Positions 2-55,040 of a stretch of DNA of 64,000 nucleotides are shown piece after piece. The stretch's first letter is position 1; every line of letters begins with the position of its first letter. Where the stretch lies: positions 82,584-146,583 of the forward strand of contig CACZKE010000005.1 of assembly GCA_902781705.1 (NCBI GenBank), given 5' to 3'. The notes beneath the pieces were generated by a model. The model saw only the letters and a list, made by a program, of their open reading frames with translations. It was not told the DNA's origin and did no database searches. A program made the translations under genes and the position numbers. Origin of the DNA: an uncultured Bacteroidia bacterium. Lineage in GTDB: Bacteria > Bacteroidota > Bacteroidia > Bacteroidales > UBA932.

Positions 2-2782
2 GAGGAAATCAGTTACGAAAAAGTAAAGGAAATCCTTGGAAACCAAGGGTTCGAGCGGGTGGACTTCGTATCGGCACCGGGACAGTATGCCATCCGCGGC
101 GCGGTCATCGACATATTCTCCTATTCCCTGGAATATCCCTACCGCCTGACTTTCTTCGGAAACGAGGTGGAGAAGATCCATACCTTCGACTGCAATACCC
201 AACTGTCCAAGGAAATTATGGACAAGGCCGATATCTATCCGGACATCGTCGCCGGGAATCCGGAGGAAGGTGGCGTGAGTATCCTGACGCTCCTGAAAAA
301 GGATACGACGGTATGGCTGGATTCGTCCGATATGTACCGTGACCGGGACTTTTTCCCGCAGTTGACGGATTTCCGCCACGTGTATCTGGATATTCCGCTG
401 TCCCGCCAGAACGAGGAAAGCGTCGCCTTCTACATCACGCCGCAGCCGGTTTTCAACAAGAACTTCGAACTGCTGCTTTCGGATATCCGGACCCGGATGG
501 AAAACGGGTACAAGGTTCATATTTTCGGTGAAAAGGAGGCGCAGTTGGAACGGCTCCGGTCCATCATCCTCCAGGACGAACATGCGCTTCTTCCGGAATT
601 CGTGAAGGGGAAAGTCATCCATGCGGGTTTCATCGACAATCAGGACAAGGTTTGCTGTTATTCCGATCATGAAATATTCGACCGCTTCCACCGGGTACGT
701 CTTCGCCGGACGGTGGAAAAGTCGGAACAACTCACGCTTAACGACCTCAGCGCCTTTAATATCGGCGATTATATCGTCCATATCGACCATGGCGTGGGGG
801 TGTTCGGCGGTCTGGTGAAGATGGCCGACGACAAGGGTCGCATCCACGAAGTGGTGAAACTCATGTACAAGGACAACGACGTGGTGTTCGTCTCCGTCCA
901 TTCCCTGCACAAGATTTCCCGCTTCCGCTCCAAGGAAGGGGAGATGCCCCGGATCAACAAACTCGGATCCAAGGCCTGGACGACGATGAAATCATCGGCC
1001 AAGTCCCGCGTGAAGGACATCGCCAAGGAACTCATCCAGCTCTATGCCCGCCGGAAGGCCTCGAAGGGATACGCCTTCTCGCCGGATAATTATTTGCAGG
1101 AGGAACTGGAATCTTCTTTCATGTACGAAGATACCCCGGACCAGGAAAAGGCGACCAGGGCGGTCAAGGAAGACATGGAGGACAATTGCCCGATGGACCG
1201 CCTGGTGTGCGGCGACGTGGGATTCGGAAAGACGGAAGTGGCCATCCGGGCCGCCTTCAAGGCCGTCTGCGACTCTAAGCAGGTGGCGGTTCTTGTGCCC
1301 ACGACGATTCTCGCCCTGCAGCATTTTGAAACTTTCAAGGCGCGTCTGAAAAACCTTCCCTGCAAGGTGGAATATGTGAGCCGCCTCCGGACGGCGAAAC
1401 AGATTACCGATATCAAAAAGCAACTGAAAGAAGGGAAGATAGACATCCTGATAGGAACGCACAAGATCCTTGGGGCCGGGTTCGAATTCAAGGATCTGGG
1501 CCTGCTTATCATCGATGAGGAACAAAAGTTCGGTGTCAGCGCGAAGGAAAAACTCCGCCAACTCAAGGCATCGGTCGATACCCTTACCTTGACGGCTACC
1601 CCGATTCCCCGGACTTTGCAGTTCTCGCTTCTCGGTGCCCGCGACCTGTCCATCATCAATACCCCGCCGCCGAACCGGATTCCCGTCCAGACGGAGATCA
1701 TCCTGTTCGACGAGCAGGAAATCAAGAGCATCGTCAATTACGAATTGAACCGGGGCGGCCAAATATTCTTCCTGCACAACAAGGTGGAGGAACTGCCGGC
1801 CATCCACGACATCCTGCACCGGCTGGTTCCGGACATGCGCATCTGTGTCGCCCATGGGCAGATGGAAGCGAAGGAACTGGAAAACAAGATGCTGGACTTC
1901 ATGCGCGGGGATTACGACATGCTCCTTTGCACGACCATCATCGAGAACGGCCTGGATATTCCCAATGCCAATACGATCATCGTGAACCAGGCGCAGAACA
2001 TCGGCCTGAGCGACCTGCACCAACTCCGCGGCCGGGTGGGACGGTCCAACCGGAAGGCCTTCTGCTACCTGATCGTTCCGCCGCTGGTGTCCATCACGGA
2101 CGACGCCCGCCGCCGTCTCCGGGCCATCGAAGAGTTTTCCGACCTGGGAAGCGGCTTCAACATCGCCATGCAGGACCTGGACATCCGGGGTGCCGGCAAC
2201 CTGCTGGGTGCCGAACAAAGCGGTTTCATTACCGACATGGGCTTCGAAACCTATCAGAAAATCCTGTCCGAGGCGATGGAGGAACTGGGTATGGAAACGG
2301 GAATAACCACCCGCGGCAAAGAAGAATCCTTCGTGGAGGACTGTACCGTGGAAACCGACCAGCCGGCCCTCATTCCGGACGATTATATCGATGTCACGGC
2401 GGAGAAGATCCGCATCTACAAACAGTTGGACAGTCTCACCGACGACCGCGAGATCGACCGCCTGGGCCGCCAGCTCGAAGACCGTTTCGGACCGGTCCCC
2501 GTGGAAGTGCGGAATCTTTTCAATGTCGTGAAAATAAGGAATTTAGGGGCTGCTTTCGGTTTCGAGAAAATCATTGTCAAGAACGGGATGCAGATCATGT
2601 TCTTCATCTCCAATCCCATGTCCGGCTTCTACAAATCCAAGCAGTTCGAAAGGATTGTCGGACGGATCAACGACCAGCCCGCGCTGTTCAAGGTGAACCA
2701 GGACAAGGGGAAACTCCGGACGGTGACCCGGGGAGTGGATTCCATGGAAAAAGCCCTCGCCACCCTGCAGCGGTTGCAATAA
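2..2782 (+). CDS. mfd: Transcription-repair coupling factor Mfd (5' truncated by window edge)
   Basis: The reading frame is open from base 2, so the true start lies upstream and about 920 residues of a roughly 1,100-residue protein are present. Mfd is a DNA translocase that removes RNA polymerase stalled at lesions and recruits UvrA. Visible in order are the end of the UvrB-like part, the CarD-like RNA-polymerase-interacting domain (FNIGDYIVHIDHGVGVF, near base 757), the helicase Walker A motif GDVGFGKTE (near 1210), the DEEQ box (near 1515), the RGRVGRS motif VI (near 2026), the translocation motif GAGNLLGAEQSGF and the C-terminal D7 domain. GTG at 59 is an internal valine, not a start. It ends 28 bp before coaX, which has its own promoter. 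Confidence 0.96.
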   Translation, partial: EEISYEKVKEILGNQGFERVDFVSAPGQYAIRGAVIDIFSYSLEYPYRLTFFGNEVEKIHTFDCNTQLSKEIMDKADIYPDIVAGNPEEGGVSILTLLKKDTTVWLDSSDMYRDRDFFPQLTDFRHVYLDIPLSRQNEESVAFYITPQPVFNKNFELLLSDIRTRMENGYKVHIFGEKEAQLERLRSIILQDEHALLPEFVKGKVIHAGFIDNQDKVCCYSDHEIFDRFHRVRLRRTVEKSEQLTLNDLSAFNIGDYIVHIDHGVGVFGGLVKMADDKGRIHEVVKLMYKDNDVVFVSVHSLHKISRFRSKEGEMPRINKLGSKAWTTMKSSAKSRVKDIAKELIQLYARRKASKGYAFSPDNYLQEELESSFMYEDTPDQEKATRAVKEDMEDNCPMDRLVCGDVGFGKTEVAIRAAFKAVCDSKQVAVLVPTTILALQHFETFKARLKNLPCKVEYVSRLRTAKQITDIKKQLKEGKIDILIGTHKILGAGFEFKDLGLLIIDEEQKFGVSAKEKLRQLKASVDTLTLTATPIPRTLQFSLLGARDLSIINTPPPNRIPVQTEIILFDEQEIKSIVNYELNRGGQIFFLHNKVEELPAIHDILHRLVPDMRICVAHGQMEAKELENKMLDFMRGDYDMLLCTTIIENGLDIPNANTIIVNQAQNIGLSDLHQLRGRVGRSNRKAFCYLIVPPLVSITDDARRRLRAIEEFSDLGSGFNIAMQDLDIRGAGNLLGAEQSGFITDMGFETYQKILSEAMEELGMETGITTRGKEESFVEDCTVETDQPALIPDDYIDVTAEKIRIYKQLDSLTDDREIDRLGRQLEDRFGPVPVEVRNLFNVVKIRNLGAAFGFEKIIVKNGMQIMFFISNPMSGFYKSKQFERIVGRINDQPALFKVNQDKGKLRTVTRGVDSMEKALATLQRLQ

Positions 2783-10133: not shown

Positions 10134-10247
10134 CCTGTCGTTTCGATCGGAGCACACTTTGTCATTCCGATCGAAGCGCCCTTTGTCGTTCTGAACTAAG
10201 TTGCCCTTTGTCATTTCGAGCGGAGCGAAGCGAAGTCGAGAAATCTA
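10134..10247. repeat. Interspersed GTCATTTCGAG-type repeat cluster
   Basis: Four imperfect copies, about 25 bp each, begin TGTCGTTTCGATCGG, TTTGTCATTCCGATCG, TTTGTCGTTCTGAAC and TTTGTCATTTCGAGCGG. The last runs on into AGCGAAGCGAAGTCGAG. The same family recurs at 20851, 30695 and 34616 in this window. It is palindrome-rich and dispersed like REP sequences. Nothing else is evident in the 252-bp gap except the hairpin that follows. Confidence 0.75.
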
Positions 10248-10380: not shown

Positions 10381-11778
10381 ATGAGAACGCACTTTCCTTG
10401 CTCCGGGCCGTTCCGCCCGGTATTCCATTTACGGAGAAAACTGCTCTCCGTTTTCCTTCTCCTTGTACATATCTCGGTTGTACAGGGAAATCCTTGTCTG
10501 GGTGCCTCAGACTGTTCAAATCAAAAGGAAAAGGCCAAAGACAAGCCTATTTCGGGAGATTTGTACACGAACAGTTCGATTGAAGGCCAAAAACCTGTTC
10601 AAACCACATTTGTACAAGGTGGGGATGGAGAGCCGGGGAGAACGCTGTCCGTGATGTTCTGGAATGTGGAGAATTTCTTCGACTGGCGGAAGGATTCGAC
10701 GACGGTATCGGATGCGGAGTTTTCGGCGGCGGGGGAGCGGCATTGGACCTGGAAACGATTCCAGGCCAAGGCGAACGCTTTCGCGAAGGCCCTGCTGTGG
10801 GTGAGTGCCGATACGGGCCGACTGCCGGATATTGTGGGCCTGGCGGAGGTGGAGAATGCCTTTGTGCTGCGGCAGGTATTGACAAAGACCCTTCTCCGGA
10901 AGCTGGACTACAAGTATGTCCATTACGATTCCCCGGATCGCCGCGGCATCGACGTCGCCCTCCTGTACCGGAGTTCGATTCTGGAACTGCTTGATTCCAA
11001 GCCCTGTCACCTGTATGCCGATGCCGGTCCTCCCGGTGCTCCCGGCGTTTCCGGCACACCTGGCGCGGCGGCCGATTCCGTAATGGAGACCCGGGACATC
11101 CTCCTGTGCATATTCCGGGAAAAGCGCTCCGTCATTCCTGGCTCGACCGGGGATCTCCCGGAAATAGAGAACAGTCCCCCATTCGAAGGCGCTTGTGGCG
11201 GGAAATTCGCGGTGTTGGTGAACCATCATCCCTCCAAATATGGAGGCGCTTCCGAGTCGGATTCGCGTCGGCGTTTGGCGGTGCAGCGCCTGCGCTTCCT
11301 GGCGGATTCCCTGTCGGCGGCGGGCATCGACCGGATCATCGCCTGCGGTGACTTCAACGACACCCCGGACAATCCCGTCTTCCAGTTGCTGGAACCAGCC
11401 TTAGTGCCCATGCACACGGACCTTTTCCGTCGCGGGGAAGGAACCATCAAGTATGAAGGCAAGTGGGACCTTATTGACCACATCTATGTTTCGCCGGGAT
11501 GGCTGTCGGACCGGACGGGAACTGCTTCCGGACCTGCAGGAAAACTGCCTTCTTCCGGACCTGCAGGAAAACAACTATCTACCAGACCGGCAGGACAGCA
11601 ACCGTTGATGCGCATCCTCCGGATACCTTTCTTACTTACCCGCGATACGGCCTACACCGGCGAAAAGCCCCTGCGCACCTATGTCGGCCCTCGCTACACC
11701 GGCGGAGTCTCCGATCATCTGCCAGTCCTGGTGGTAGTGAGGCTCCCTGGACAGGATGTGGCTGCCGAGCCGCCATGA
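10381..11778 (+). CDS. Secreted endonuclease/exonuclease/phosphatase-family protein carrying repeat insertions
   Basis: The 465-residue product keeps the full catalytic core of the Mg-dependent EEP fold: MFWNVENFFDW, VGLAEVEN, RRGIDVALLYRS, LVNHHPSKY, IIACGDFNDTPDNP, WDLIDHIYVSP and SDHLPVL. The substrate (nucleic acid, phosphoester or lipid) cannot be told. The N-terminal hydrophobic stretch LLSVFLLL runs straight into a 153-bp palindromic element (10464-10616) read in frame as 51 residues. A second insertion-like stretch (about 11125-11215) and a 27-bp triplicated linker (11525-11605) lie between core motifs. A TATCTTGG box 4 bases before ATG 10381 supports the start. The inserts appear confined to non-core segments. 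Confidence 0.82.
   Translation: MRTHFPCSGPFRPVFHLRRKLLSVFLLLVHISVVQGNPCLGASDCSNQKEKAKDKPISGDLYTNSSIEGQKPVQTTFVQGGDGEPGRTLSVMFWNVENFFDWRKDSTTVSDAEFSAAGERHWTWKRFQAKANAFAKALLWVSADTGRLPDIVGLAEVENAFVLRQVLTKTLLRKLDYKYVHYDSPDRRGIDVALLYRSSILELLDSKPCHLYADAGPPGAPGVSGTPGAAADSVMETRDILLCIFREKRSVIPGSTGDLPEIENSPPFEGACGGKFAVLVNHHPSKYGGASESDSRRRLAVQRLRFLADSLSAAGIDRIIACGDFNDTPDNPVFQLLEPALVPMHTDLFRRGEGTIKYEGKWDLIDHIYVSPGWLSDRTGTASGPAGKLPSSGPAGKQLSTRPAGQQPLMRILRIPFLLTRDTAYTGEKPLRTYVGPRYTGGVSDHLPVLVVVRLPGQDVAAEPP
10464..10616 (+). repeat. 153-bp palindromic element, copy 1 (inside the EEP gene)
   Basis: This copy carries the four boxes of the family: GGTTGTACA at 10476, GTTCAAAT at 10514, ATTTGTACA at 10559 and GTTCAAAC at 10597 (offsets 0, 38, 83, 121). 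Its 21-bp ends are imperfect palindromes that match each other inverted at 16 of 21 positions. It is exactly 153 bp, so it adds 51 codons without shifting frame. It is translated just after the signal-peptide hydrophobic core of the host gene. Confidence 0.85.
11525..11605 (+). repeat. 27-bp tandem triplication within the EEP gene
   Basis: Three in-frame copies, period 27 bp (9 codons), share a CTTCCGGACCTGCAGGAAAA-like unit. They encode a glycine/proline/alanine linker (SGPAGK, SGPAGK, TRPAGQ) between the DH motif and the C-terminal SDH motif. The third copy is more diverged. Confidence 0.8.
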
Positions 11779-11820
11779 CGGGATCCTTTATTTCGGCCGT
11801 GAATAATCCGGAGGCCTCCC

Positions 11821-11974
11821 CGTACGAGTCTCGTTTGTACAAGCAATTGTGCTTGATAGGCCGAAATCCTGTTCAAATCTCGGAGAAAACGCAGGTATCT
11901 GTACTGTTCGTTTGAGGTTTGAACAAATAAACGGTGTTTCAGTTGGAGTTGGCTGTACAAACCCAATTTGAATT
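11821..11974 (+). repeat. 153-bp-family palindromic element, copy 2 (upstream of the transposase gene)
   Basis: Boxes are GTTTGTACA at 11833, GTTCAAAT at 11871, GTTTGAACA at 11917 and GTACAAAC at 11955. The second half is displaced by one base, giving 154 bp. The left end is a slightly diverged copy of the 21-bp palindrome; the right end keeps TGTACAAAC and ATTTG. It ends 17 bp before the transposase ATG, and its right edge (TGAATTTG, 11969-11976) resembles a -7 promoter element. Confidence 0.82.
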
Positions 11975-11991
11975 TGTCAATAAACCATAGT

Positions 11992-12927
11992 ATGCTCAAG
12001 ACTTATCACCTTTGTTTCAGTTCCCATCGGGAAGTAATGTATCGGAATGCCGAGGATATGAACCATTCCTTCAATTGTTTATGCTCCGCATTATATAAGA
12101 CGGGAAGCCGTTGCCTGGCGGAGAATGACATGCCGTCCCATCATCATGGATGTTATGAGACGGAGTGTCCGGATGAATTGATCCGGACCAAACGCCACGC
12201 CTACACCCTTTATTTCAATGAGAAGTATGACCGCAAAGGACCTCTTGGGGACCCGGGATACTTTTCCATCGTGCTGGAAGGCCTGCGGCATTTGTTGGCG
12301 GCCTTGTCCTACATCATCAGAAATACAGTCCATCATGGCATTACATCCACGCCGTTCGAGTGGCCCTATTGCTCGGCCAATGCGTTCTTCCGCAAAGAGT
12401 TGGGAAAGTTGTATTCTCCTGATATCCTGTTATCTCCGGCACAGATCGAGCGAACTTTGCCACGCCGTGCCGCTTTCGATCCGCAATGGAAGATGGGGGT
12501 CGAGGGGGTCTTTCTGCGCGAGTCCGTCCTGGAAGTGCCCATGGTGGAGAACCTGTACGCGACTCCCAAGGCCTTCAACTACTTGATCACCCGACTCAGT
12601 GGGGAGGATTGGTCCAAGGAACAGGAGGCCGACGGCAACGGCCTTCCGCCCATTACGCTGGAGAACATGGAGTCTTTGATTCTTCAGCATGCCGTTTCCC
12701 GGGAGCAAGTCATCGCAGATATGCTCCGTAACGAAAAAGCCCGCTATGCGCCAGCCCGTCTGAATGATTTACAACTATGTGAAATCATAGACAATCAATA
12801 TGTTACAAAATACCATGCCTATTCCGTCTATCATCTTACAGACTTCCAGAAAAACGAAATTGCCAATGAATTGTACCGCCGCCATCATGCAGGCGTCGCC
12901 CAGATCCGTCGTTGTCTGGTCATGTGA
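11992..12927 (+). CDS. REP-associated tyrosine transposase-like (Y1/HUH) protein
   Basis: The 311-residue protein shows the IS200/RAYT Y1 fold. The HUH metal site is MPSHHHGCYE with histidines 50-52. YFNEKYDRKGPLGDPGYFSI (about 74-93) corresponds to the YFNxRxxRxGxL segment, and the candidate catalytic tyrosine is Tyr107 in SYIIRNTVHHG. Typical Y1 enzymes are 130-230 residues; the extra C-terminal third ends in a likely helix-turn-helix (LTDFQKNEIANEL, then AGVAQIRRCL). The ATG at 11992 was preferred to a TTG at 11968 that lies in the flanking repeat. Family elements end 17 bp before and begin 13 bp after the gene, the arrangement of a REPtron. Activity is inferred, not shown. Confidence 0.82.
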   Translation: MLKTYHLCFSSHREVMYRNAEDMNHSFNCLCSALYKTGSRCLAENDMPSHHHGCYETECPDELIRTKRHAYTLYFNEKYDRKGPLGDPGYFSIVLEGLRHLLAALSYIIRNTVHHGITSTPFEWPYCSANAFFRKELGKLYSPDILLSPAQIERTLPRRAAFDPQWKMGVEGVFLRESVLEVPMVENLYATPKAFNYLITRLSGEDWSKEQEADGNGLPPITLENMESLILQHAVSREQVIADMLRNEKARYAPARLNDLQLCEIIDNQYVTKYHAYSVYHLTDFQKNEIANELYRRHHAGVAQIRRCLVM

Positions 12928-12940
12928 CGGATTCCGCTCA

Positions 12941-13357
12941 GGAACAAACCTCGTTTGTACATCTTTTGCACAGAGGTGAATGGCTTTCATGTTCAAATCT
13001 CCTGTTTAAGCCCGATTTTTCCGGTGATTCTCGCGGTTTGTACACGTAATCAATGTTTGAGGGGCAAATCGTTGTTCAAACGGGGTTTGTACATCTTGAG
13101 TACAGTGGCGAATGGAAATTTTGTTCAAATCTCCTGTTTAAGCCCGATACGTCCACGGATTCTCACGGTTTGTACACGTAATCAATGTTTGAGGGGCAAA
13201 TCGTTGTTCAAACGGGGTTTGTACAACTTGAGCACATTGACGAATGGATTTCGTGTTCAAGTCTCCTGTTTTAGCCCGATTTTTCCGGTGATTCTCGCGG
13301 TTTGTACACGTAATCAATGTTTGAAGGGCAAATCGTTGTTCAAACGAGGTTTGTACA
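12941..13357 (+). repeat. Tandem array of three overlapping 153-bp palindromic elements
   Basis: Three copies repeat with period 132 bp. The total of 417 bp equals 153 plus twice 132, so neighbouring copies share one 21-bp terminal palindrome. Box starts are 12953, 12991, 13036, 13074, then +132 and +264, closing with GTTTGTACA at 13349. The second half of each unit (CGTAATCAATGTTTGAGGGG core) is almost invariant, while the first half varies. It begins 13 bp after the transposase stop. The remaining gap to 13436 shows nothing else recognisable. Confidence 0.9.
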
Positions 13358-13484: not shown

Positions 13485-13850
13485 ATGAAACAGAAACTGA
13501 CAGCCAAGGAAGAGCAACTGATGACCCTTTTCTGGGAGCATGGCGACCTCTTCATCCGCGACCTAGTGGCGCTGCTGCCGGAGCCGCGACCTCATTACAA
13601 CACGGTGGCGACCCTGGTCAAGTTCCTGGAGGAGAAAGGCTTCCTGGAGCGTGAACCGATGGCGAACACTTTCCGCTACCACGTGAAAGTCTCCGAGAAG
13701 CAGTACCGCGGGGATACCGTGGGCGAGGTCGTAGCTCAGTACTACAACAATTCTTACGCGAGCCTTGTATCGCAGTTCGTGGAGGAAGACCGCATGGACC
13801 TGCAGGAACTCAAGGACCTGATTGCCCGGATTGAAAGCGCAAGGAAATGA
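13485..13850 (+). CDS. BlaI/MecI/CopY-family transcriptional repressor
   Basis: A 121-residue winged-helix repressor: TAKEEQLMTLFWEHGDLFIRD, then the recognition-helix region PRPHYNTVATLVKFLEEKGFL and a C-terminal dimerisation helix. Family members are cleaved by a partner M56 protease (BlaR1/MecR1), and the next gene, overlapping by 4 bp (ATGA), encodes such a protease. It probably represses its own operon through the dyad at 13437. No beta-lactamase gene is adjacent, so the target response is probably envelope stress rather than drug resistance; that last step is inference. Confidence 0.9.
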   Translation: MKQKLTAKEEQLMTLFWEHGDLFIRDLVALLPEPRPHYNTVATLVKFLEEKGFLEREPMANTFRYHVKVSEKQYRGDTVGEVVAQYYNNSYASLVSQFVEEDRMDLQELKDLIARIESARK

Positions 13851-15388
13851 CGCCCTTCCTTTTATACATCGCCCGGAGCAGCCTGTATTTGGCCCTTTTC
13901 TACGCATTCTTCCTGCTGGTGATGCGGAGGACATCCTTCTTTCGTCTGAACCGAATCCTGCTGCTGGCGGGGACGCTGTTGTGCTTCCTGCTGCCATGGC
14001 TGCGAATCAGGACGGTGGAGGTTCCGCTTCTTGCGGCCGATCTCCTGACGGAGACGGCTTCCGAGCCGTCCCTGACGCCCGTTCCTTCCGCCACCCCGTT
14101 CCCCTACCTGGAAATTCTGTACGGCATCGGTTTCCTGGCCGTGCTGGGATGGACCCTGATGGCAGCGGTCCGGATGCACCGGACTATCCGGAAAGGCACC
14201 GCCACACGCCTGGAAGACGGTACGAGGATCGTATTGACGGAGGACGGAATTTCCTCCTTCAGCTGGGGCCGCACCATCGTCATGAGCCGGAAAGACGCAG
14301 AAACGAATCCCGCCATCCTGCTGCATGAAAAGGCCCATGTCCAAAAAAGACACACACTGGATATCCTGCTGTTTACGGCCGTCACCCTGGTCCATTGGTT
14401 CAATCCCCTCGTCTGGATCACCCTCAGCGAACTCAAACTCCTGCACGAGTATGAGGCCGATGACGCCGTCCTCCATCATGGCATCGATGCTACCCAATAC
14501 CAACTGCTGCTGGTCCGGAAGGCCGTCGGGGAAAAGCGCTTTTCCCTGGCCAACGGATTCCAGCACGCCAAACTCAAAAATCGAATCGACATGATGCTCC
14601 AAGCCCCTTCTTCCGGATGGAAGCGCCTCTCCTGGCTTGCCCTCCTTCCCTTCCTCGCCGGGACCATGTTCCTGTGCAATCCCGTCCGTGCCAAGGTCGT
14701 CTCCGTCGATCAGCCCGAGACGGTCCTCTCTGAAACGGTTCCGGCCGCTCTCCCCGACACGACCAAGGGTCTCCCCTACAGTCTCGTCGAAGTCAAGCCG
14801 ACCTTCAACGGCGGCGAAGCCGGCGCAGCATTCTCCAAATGGGTCAATGAAAACCTTCAGTACCCGCAGGCGGCCAAAGATGCTGGCGCCCAGGGGCGCA
14901 TACTACTGCAATTCACCGTCTATCCCGACGGCTCAGTCCGTGATGCCCAAGTCCTTCGCGGTGTGAACCCCGACCTGGATGCCGAGGCGCTCCGCGTCGT
15001 TTCCGCCTCCCCGGATTGGACGCCCGGCTACGTTAATGGCAAACCGGTAATGGTCACTTACAACTTTCCGGTCATCTTTAAATTGAAGGGAGGCGAATCT
15101 GGCCCCAACACCTCTAAAAAGGATCAAACCGTTAACGTAGTCAACATCACCGACGGCATCTATACCATCGAAGGCTTGCCGCAGGGGGAGGGAGTCTTCT
15201 TAGTAGGTCCCGACTCCGAGTCCGCGTTGTTCATCTTGGACGGAAAAGAAATCACGAAAGCACAATTGAAAGAAATCAATCCGGCAACCCTTGAATCTAT
15301 CCAGATTCTGAAAGACGAAAAAGCCGTTGAGAGATATGGTGAGAAAGGCCGTAACGGCGTCGTTATTATTACTTCCATGAAACAATGA
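13847..15388 (+). CDS. M56 (BlaR1-like) membrane metalloprotease fused to TonB_C and a plug-like tail
   Basis: The 513-residue protein begins with membrane helices (about 5-25, 35-55, 90-110). The zinc motif HEKAH is at 160-164, with the downstream ligand segment ELKLLHEYEADDA. A TonB C-terminal domain (about 315-405, GRILLQFTVYPDGSV) follows a further membrane helix near 265-285. The tail (about 440-513) resembles the plug of TonB-dependent receptors (ILDGKEIT, SIQILKDEKA, YGEKGRNGVVIIT). It presumably senses envelope state and inactivates the upstream repressor. It overlaps both neighbours by 4 bp, indicating translational coupling. Confidence 0.88.
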   Translation: MTPFLLYIARSSLYLALFYAFFLLVMRRTSFFRLNRILLLAGTLLCFLLPWLRIRTVEVPLLAADLLTETASEPSLTPVPSATPFPYLEILYGIGFLAVLGWTLMAAVRMHRTIRKGTATRLEDGTRIVLTEDGISSFSWGRTIVMSRKDAETNPAILLHEKAHVQKRHTLDILLFTAVTLVHWFNPLVWITLSELKLLHEYEADDAVLHHGIDATQYQLLLVRKAVGEKRFSLANGFQHAKLKNRIDMMLQAPSSGWKRLSWLALLPFLAGTMFLCNPVRAKVVSVDQPETVLSETVPAALPDTTKGLPYSLVEVKPTFNGGEAGAAFSKWVNENLQYPQAAKDAGAQGRILLQFTVYPDGSVRDAQVLRGVNPDLDAEALRVVSASPDWTPGYVNGKPVMVTYNFPVIFKLKGGESGPNTSKKDQTVNVVNITDGIYTIEGLPQGEGVFLVGPDSESALFILDGKEITKAQLKEINPATLESIQILKDEKAVERYGEKGRNGVVIITSMKQ

Positions 15389-23453: not shown

Positions 23454-23606
23454 TGTACAAATCTCGTTTGTACAACCACATGCCGCTCTTTCGCAGATTC
23501 TTTGTACAAACGGACCGGGAAACCAAGCAAAGCGCCGGTTTCTTCTGAGATATGAACAGAAAAGGGCGACAGGATGCCGAAACCGTGTACAAACGAGATT
23601 TGTACA
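23454..23606 (+). repeat. 153-bp palindromic element, copy 4 (isolated)
   Basis: Exactly 153 bp. The terminal 21-mers are perfect inverted copies of each other, and each is a hairpin with arms TGTACAAA and TTTGTACA around TCTCG or CGAGA. Boxes are GTTTGTACA (23466), GTACAAAC (23504), a diverged ATATGAACA (23550) and GTACAAAC (23587). It occupies most of the 350-bp gap between the YhfC and PHP genes, more than 10 kb from the transposase gene. Confidence 0.88.
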
Positions 23607-54887: not shown

Positions 54888-55040
54888 TGTACAAGTCTCG
54901 CTTGTACATCAAAATGCATCTTTGGTCGGGGTTTTCTGCTCAAGTCTTTCGGGATTGGGCGATAACCGACCAAATCCGCGAGACTTGTACATGGAAACGT
55001 CGTTTTGCCGATGTTTTCGTGTACAAATGAGACTTGTACA
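54888..55040 (+). repeat. 153-bp palindromic element, copy 5 (isolated, next to the tRNA fragment)
   Basis: Exactly 153 bp with boxes GCTTGTACA (54900), GCTCAAGT (54938), ACTTGTACA (54983) and GTACAAAT (55021): offsets 0, 38, 83, 121. The terminal 21-mers match inverted at 19 of 21 positions. It sits between the 99-bp repeat and the terminator of the tRNA remnant, over 41 kb from the transposase gene. Confidence 0.87.

Follow-up and report, generated by a model that had tools for sequence, protein, structure and literature searches.

The window analysed here, a 64,000-nt stretch of contig CACZKE010000005.1 from an uncultured Bacteroidia bacterium with an assembly (G000) of 3.07 Mb, contains a gene for a RAYT-like (REP-associated tyrosine transposase, REP standing for repetitive extragenic palindrome) Y1/HUH protein that is surrounded by palindromic elements. 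The gene (11992..12927, on the plus strand like the preceding gene and the seven elements of the window given below) encodes a protein of 311 amino acids (aa), designated P0001, and was recognised from its open reading frame (ORF), the NCBIfam model REP_Tyr_transpos, an AlphaFold2 model, Foldseek comparison and invariant residues. It is preceded by a gene of the Exo_endo_phos_3 family (10381..11778, family match E 5.6e-57), and in all eight loci checked the gene next upstream of the HUH gene was of this exo/endonuclease type. One element, identified by covariance model and with decayed outer arms, is located directly upstream of the HUH gene (11821..11974) and ends 17 bp before its ATG, while 13 bp separate the stop codon (ending at 12927) from an array of three copies (12941..13093, 13073..13225 and 13205..13357, from repeat comparison and covariance model), in which the hairpin at 13073-13093 is common to copies 1 and 2 and that at 13205-13225 to copies 2 and 3. 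Another 153-bp element (10464..10616, covariance model and alignment) is hosted in frame by the exo/endonuclease gene, N-terminal to the catalytic domain, and adds 51 codons without a stop. The preliminary description of this locus had reported a Y1/HUH gene bracketed by 153-bp palindromic elements at these 17-bp and 13-bp distances, with five of the seven copies of the window in this stretch of approximately 3 kb; the distances were confirmed and the covariance model agrees with the count, the other two copies being dispersed elements at 23454..23606, between divergent ORFs, and at 54888..55040.

Of the 21 copies on which the covariance model (R1) was based, 13 came from the window's own genome and eight from the sister genome G199. 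The model located 14 element places on seven contigs of the assembly, 13 of which were already part of its own alignment, and gave 28 strand matches for these 14 places because the unit is nearly palindromic. Independently of the model, the box GTTTGWACA was present 18 times in the window with 0.50 expected (18 or more in 0/100 shuffles), and the 21-nt hairpin pattern was found at 12 sites in the own genome versus none for a reversed control pattern. Over 149 nt, identity to the first array copy was 87% for the second copy and 89% for the third.

The ends of the unit are 21-nt hairpins, TGTACAAA(TCTCG)TTTGTACA, with a consensus of TGTACAAR, five nucleotides (often TCTCG) and YTTGTACA that gives an 8-bp stem, and the same pair of boxes forms an internal hairpin with a loop of approximately 36 nt. 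The four boxes and 153-bp unit proposed earlier were retained, with their arrangement refined to hairpins at the ends plus a long-loop internal hairpin and an array period of 132 bp rather than 153 bp, since adjacent copies have one hairpin in common. The element ends are sharp, as between-copy identity outside the hairpins was at background (0.22–0.32 per 10-nt block, and at most 0.45 in single adjacent columns) when 12 copies with 60 bp of flank were compared, two of the 14 being omitted and two of the 12 having array sequence as one flank. In a 21-row alignment, the three hairpins had 18 double-changed cells versus 11.4 in shuffles (2/500 shuffles as high) and the hairpin covariation score was reached by 6/500 shuffles, counts which are not probabilities since the rows are kin; the hairpins covary in part. 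An alternative 38-nt pairing of the boxes was rejected, with no excess of double changes (128/500 shuffles as high).

A scan of named genomes, using a nine-sequence alignment of close homologues, gave 204 relatives of which 80 were kept, all titled Bacteroidales or Bacteroidia and many with isolate names suggesting ruminant or other herbivore guts. P0001 and 61 members chosen from these 80 loci were aligned, and the AlphaFold2 model of P0001 based on this 62-member alignment had a predicted local distance difference test (pLDDT) score of 94.7 and a predicted template modelling (pTM) score of 0.92. The top PDB match in Foldseek was 4er8, the E. coli REP-associated transposase with a REP hairpin (E 2.7e-5, 148 columns), with ISDra2, IS608 and further Y1 transposases next in rank, and the prediction thus supports the HUH fold on which the preliminary description had relied. 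The histidines 50-52 and candidate Tyr107 named there were borne out by the invariance of H50, H52 and Y107 in 62/62 members, with an H52-Y107 spacing of 55 in 57/62 and 57 in 5/62. Residue 111 (Tyr+4) was N in 37 members, including P0001, and Q in 25, comparable to N119 and Q131, given as essential in known enzymes in a legend of PMC6006769. The Tyr motif of P0001 is YIIRNT, and positions 80–107 contain a Trp in only one of the 62 members. At E 0.01, Pfam Y1_Tnp matched 8/62 members and REP_Tyr_transpos matched 21/62, P0001 included.

The HUH core of P0001 comprises approximately residues 1–135 and is followed by an extra C-terminal region of approximately 175 residues (~136–311), which ends in three confidently predicted helices and has invariant positions including E227, D259, C263 and D267. 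Searched alone, this region gave no convincing Pfam family and no PDB fold match at E 0.001, and modelled alone it was predicted less confidently (pLDDT 80.0, pTM 0.40); that it contains a helix-turn-helix would be a guess. A viral fold library gave no match at E 0.001.

The association between gene and repeats extends to homologous loci, of which 57 of the 80 had sufficient flank for repeat counts. At least ten inverted 9-mer pairs were present within 500 bp of the gene at 49/57 loci, versus 9/57 and 10/57 in control windows at 1.1 kb and 2.2 kb, respectively. Similarly, 36/57 loci had a 9-mer that was present at least four times and in both orientations (3/57 and 0/57 in the control windows), and 39/57 had at least four 10-mers common to the upstream and downstream flanks (2/57 and 5/57 in the controls). 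The multiplicity counts are safer than the pair counts, because the control windows are richer in coding sequence, which favours the contrast. These inverted k-mer counts replaced a screen requiring perfect 7-bp stems, which had detected repeated hairpins in 1/50 loci with a hit.

The sequence of the boxes changes along with the protein. Among ordered pairs of loci, boxes were shared in 28/31 pairs at ≥80% protein identity, 11/20 at 70–80%, 21/92 at 60–70%, 20/399 at 50–60%, 48/1486 at 40–50% and 47/1947 below 40%. The 75% homologues retain the TGTACAAG/CTTGTACA boxes, the 53–59% homologues are mixed (TGTACATA boxes in L066, L067 and G229, a TGTGTAC form in G235 and CTTGTACA in G279), and the boxes of homologues below 50% identity are mostly unrelated. 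Other Y1 genes in the window's genome carry other repeats, and the best paralogue of P0001 in this genome has 36% identity.

At least nine Y1-like genes were found in G000 (two by Pfam Y1_Tnp and seven other places by the window-family profile, the window gene included), the majority being missed by the Pfam model. One of the Y1 loci, L001 (G000:C11:87728-90167), is a second REPtron-like locus in which the gene for a 305-aa Y1 protein (883-1800, minus strand) has six AGGTGCAC hairpins upstream at a 65-bp period and two downstream, with 17 such hairpins on seven contigs. At L045 (4143-5069, G000:C29), a 36% paralogue is flanked on either side by 83-bp repeat units of its own, with one partial match elsewhere, on C3. 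A further repeat is interspersed in the window, GTCATTTCGAGCG (up to one mismatch), at 10210, 20855, 30754, 34630 and 34653 (five sites versus 0.15 expected).

In the same taxonomic family, 83 of 199 sampled genomes had a protein match at E 1e-5, many of these being partial or distant paralogues, and within the genus 69 of 101 genomes had such a match. A sample of the phylum gave matches at E 1e-10 in 52/296 genomes, where among the matches listed only two proteins of the window's genome covered the whole profile and the others covered approximately the HUH core; in the genomes sampled, no full-length members were seen outside the Bacteroidales family to which the window belongs. The 101 genus genomes were searched with both the element model and the protein, and the co-occurrence proposed in the preliminary description was apparent in the three genomes with an orthologue at approximately 75% identity or more, G000, G204 and G268, which have 14, 6 and 10 element loci (counted from the places listed, with short and solo forms). 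The 75–76% orthologue genes in G204 and G268 are bracketed by elements, and the sister genome G199 (L065, 97% protein identity) has hairpins around the gene and elsewhere. Any element match at E 0.001 was found in 12/101 genomes, and no genome with strong element matches but no orthologue had many elements, a combination which had been named as evidence contrary to the proposed system. Among genomes with 55–59% homologues, weak element matches were present in G229 and G279 and none in G235, while in G284 a homologue with just 36% identity has weak matches (25–27 bits) on both sides.

Elements were found as solo 21-nt hairpins, as 153-bp units and as arrays with a 132-bp period, and therefore units are gained or lost between hairpins. 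Such differences occur at homologous sites: the collinear array has three copies in the window versus one in G199, and the site in the exo/endonuclease gene has a 153-bp element in the window genome and in G199, a solo 21-nt hairpin in G268 and neither in G204, the leader being too diverged to map the in-gene junction to the base. For a second solo hairpin of G268 (C7:506), the left flank matches those of the full copies at C3:9286 (96/120), at 54888 (98/120) and in G199 C25 (89/115), far above shuffles, and the left flank of G199 C13 does not match; the right flank resembles that of C3:9286 over approximately 15 nt by eye, with a 30-nt alignment test not significant for any copy. A solo hairpin was also found in G218. 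Only one outer flank could be located for the C3 element, and at the place of the G199 C13 element the window's genome lacks approximately 3.2 kb from the end of a tRNA-Met gene onwards, and hence does not have a simple empty site there.

Some copies and neighbours have features of their own. At L013 1501-1834 (G000:C16:43036-43369), most of the element has been duplicated locally in tandem along with neighbouring sequence, with a single copy in G199. The elements at 54888 and L003 1501, as well as those at L152 and L221, adjoin terminator-like sequence and have common flanks, and are located beside a stretch resembling a tRNA 3′ end by eye, with no tRNA detected by ARAGORN in the window, L003 or L152; the shared flanks look as if they derive from a larger duplicated or island-linked segment. 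The exo/endonuclease-family gene (10381-11778) has a tandem 27-bp repeat at 11522-11575. Directly after the array, a penicillinase-repressor-type gene starts at 13485, followed by an ORF (both within 13485-15388) which from its motifs we take to be an M56-type sensor, and this order is collinear in G199.

We consider it probable, with a chance of roughly three in four, that this is a REPtron-like locus, consisting of a vertically inherited, apparently non-self-mobile REP-type Y1/HUH transposase and the private palindromes that it recognises. This reading, already put forward in the preliminary description, is supported by 4er8 as top fold match and by the repeats flanking most homologues. The mechanism that we propose is based on analogy with TnpAREP, for which single-strand recognition, CT cleavage, a 5′-phosphotyrosine link and strand transfer are described (PMC8266576). 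The protein would bind the 21-nt terminal hairpins and the internal hairpin in single-stranded DNA, for example on the lagging-strand template, and Tyr107 would cut at or beside a hairpin, form a 5′-phosphotyrosine link and rejoin the strand to another hairpin. Through exchange between hairpins, one 132-nt unit would then be gained or lost, which would account for solo hairpins, single units and arrays, and the exchange would sometimes seed a copy elsewhere. By the same analogy we infer that the enzyme, and not general recombination, acts on and moves the elements.

Several observations weigh against this interpretation. Pfam gave no match to P0001 at E 1, so that the designation of this protein as HUH rests on homologues, NCBIfam and fold, with the NCBIfam model REP_Tyr_transpos (NF047646) giving 20 bits (E 5e-4) where the cut-off is 80 bits. 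A GT[AG]G foot was present within 6 nt of only one of 117 boxes (on both strands of the 14 elements, with overlapping parts of the array entering the count twice), and three of five covariation measures were unremarkable against 500 shuffles, with 68, 76 and 436 shuffles as high for percentage paired, double-change pairs and pair types, respectively. Eight of the 57 loci were below the threshold for inverted pairs in the flanks, box sets could be obtained from only 53 of 76 usable loci, and the sharing of boxes is confounded with common ancestry of the flanks and does occur to some extent at 33–50% protein identity. Co-occurrence is also incomplete, as G263, G295, G129 and G218 have strong element matches without an orthologue; none of these has many element loci (one or two each), draft gaps alone are unlikely to explain them given a completeness of 87–98%, and gene loss would be our guess. 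The sites at 10464, 11821, the array, 23454 (at a collinear place) and C16 are also occupied in G199 by alignment, and with the element at 54888 having a similarly flanked counterpart (G199 C25, at approximately 163.3 kb) of uncertain orthology, element activity looks slow. No clean pair of empty and filled sites at a new locus was found for the C3 and G199 C13 elements checked, and hence recent movement is not shown. Finally, slippage or homologous recombination between the 21-bp hairpins could also give 132-bp arrays and solo hairpins, and slippage is the main competing source of these forms.

Such processes are central to an explanation that we regard as unlikely, in which P0001 is a protein domesticated for a host or autoregulatory function that binds the hairpins around its own gene, and others elsewhere, to control expression, with the repeats being spread and lost by slippage and recombination. 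The constant upstream neighbour in the eight loci checked, the low copy number of 14 and the occupancy in the sister genome of all copies whose place was checked are in line with domestication, and slippage can yield the array and solo forms, whereas the invariance of H50, H52 and Y107 in all 62 members argues against it, as do the copies on seven contigs with unrelated flanks and sharp ends, which slippage cannot seed.

We consider it very improbable that the locus is an insertion sequence of the IS200/IS605 type with hairpin ends, in which the gene and flanking elements move as one. The Y1 fold and the hairpin repeats on both sides would suit such an element, but identity to the best paralogue in the genome does not exceed 36%, the upstream neighbour is constant in the eight loci checked, elements without a gene are dispersed, and no relatives were found in IMG/VR contigs, 72,556 plasmids or 50,697 phages at the limits used. 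We give hardly any credence to the repeats being ordinary terminators, or dyad sites of an unrelated regulator, located beside the gene by chance: hairpins are a common feature of intergenic DNA, the gene that follows (13485) is of penicillinase-repressor type and the control windows for inverted pairs contain more coding DNA, yet at the 57 loci the excess does not extend beyond the 500 bp nearest to the HUH gene, the repeats vary along with the protein and are not the same in paralogues of one genome, and the window gave no match to an Rfam family at gathering scores.

Compared with the REPtrons of E. coli and Stenotrophomonas, which combine TnpAREP/RAYT with REP or BIME (bacterial interspersed mosaic element) repeats in the descriptions drawn on here (PMC8266576, PMC6006769), the locus has a similar HUH-Tyr core with N or Q at Tyr+4, 4er8 as top fold match, and a single chromosomal gene with palindromes of its own on both sides, the same repeats being dispersed in the genome, and several gene-repeat pairs per genome. 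It differs from these descriptions in the absence of a GT[AG]G foot, in its three-hairpin unit of 153 bp versus a single short hairpin, in the extra C-terminal residues and in the few copies, and it also departs from canonical REPtrons in its score with the curated RAYT model. The earlier statement that RAYTs are established mainly in Proteobacteria needs correction, as TnpAREP subclasses 2.4 and 2.6 occur in Bacteroidetes according to the subclass descriptions of Quentin et al. 2018 (PMC6006769), where subclass 2.6 (Bertels group 5) is noted for 'atypical secondary structures' with copies elsewhere in the genome. Subclass 2.6 resembles our system in phylum and in flanking structures other than GTAG with copies elsewhere, whereas according to the same descriptions it has a median length of 179 aa (311 here), a median HUH-Tyr spacing of 82 (55–57 here), a Tyr motif of YIH[QN]NP versus YIIRNT in P0001, and a WQ motif that is absent here (PMC6006769). 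The subclasses with long C-termini, 2.1 and 2.3, are listed there without REP association, unlike P0001 with repeats beside its gene and elsewhere (PMC6006769). Our search of the open-licence literature on RAYT, REPIN, REPtron or TnpAREP and Bacteroidetes or Bacteroidales found no subclass like that of P0001, and this looks like a new subclass but not the first REPtron of Bacteroidetes, since the subclass descriptions of Quentin et al. already include Bacteroidetes with atypical repeats (PMC6006769); of the undescribed Bacteroidales version suggested in the preliminary description, the subclass appears new and the novelty of Bacteroidetes REPtrons was overstated.

The TIRtrons, in which a tyrosine transposase (TIRYT) is flanked by long, sometimes self-complementary repeats of small families without GTAG, are a fair analogy, although the TIRtron section of Di Nocera 2013 (PMC3733652) describes no three-hairpin unit of 132/153 bp. 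Inverted repeats other than GTAG also flank the tyrosine transposase here, and the likeness is one of architecture. To our knowledge, none of the TIRtron carriers named in that section belongs to the Bacteroidales. With IS608 and ISDra2 of the IS200/IS605 family the locus has the Y1 fold in common, but it shows no sign of the gene moving with the repeats and no near-identical gene copies. The Rickettsia palindromic element (RPE) is a palindrome located in frame within coding genes. The element in the exo/endonuclease gene resembles it in this respect, whereas the Rickettsia element has no dedicated transposase. In the account of Di Nocera, the R. conorii RPE end in CGTC, and CGTC repeats are without a dedicated transposase (PMC3733652).

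A more specific form of the REPtron-like interpretation, which we put forward tentatively as it seems to us somewhat doubtful, is that this REP-type subclass acts as a hairpin-exchange recombinase, moving 132-nt units in and out between near-identical 21-nt hairpins and leaving a solo hairpin as footprint, with the C-terminal region having a fast-changing specificity, so that most genes of the family would own a private palindrome. If true, the family would hold dozens of enzymes naturally paired with their sites. There is little understanding of how a REP-type transposase selects its palindromes and disseminates them, and the experiments reviewed were made with a few proteobacterial enzymes (PMC8266576). 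In the related gut bacteria, palindromes have diverged among many homologues, and even paralogues of one genome have different repeats. One gene site, compared across related species, has the full element, a solo hairpin or no element. Together, these make palindrome specificity and the gain and loss of units directly testable here.

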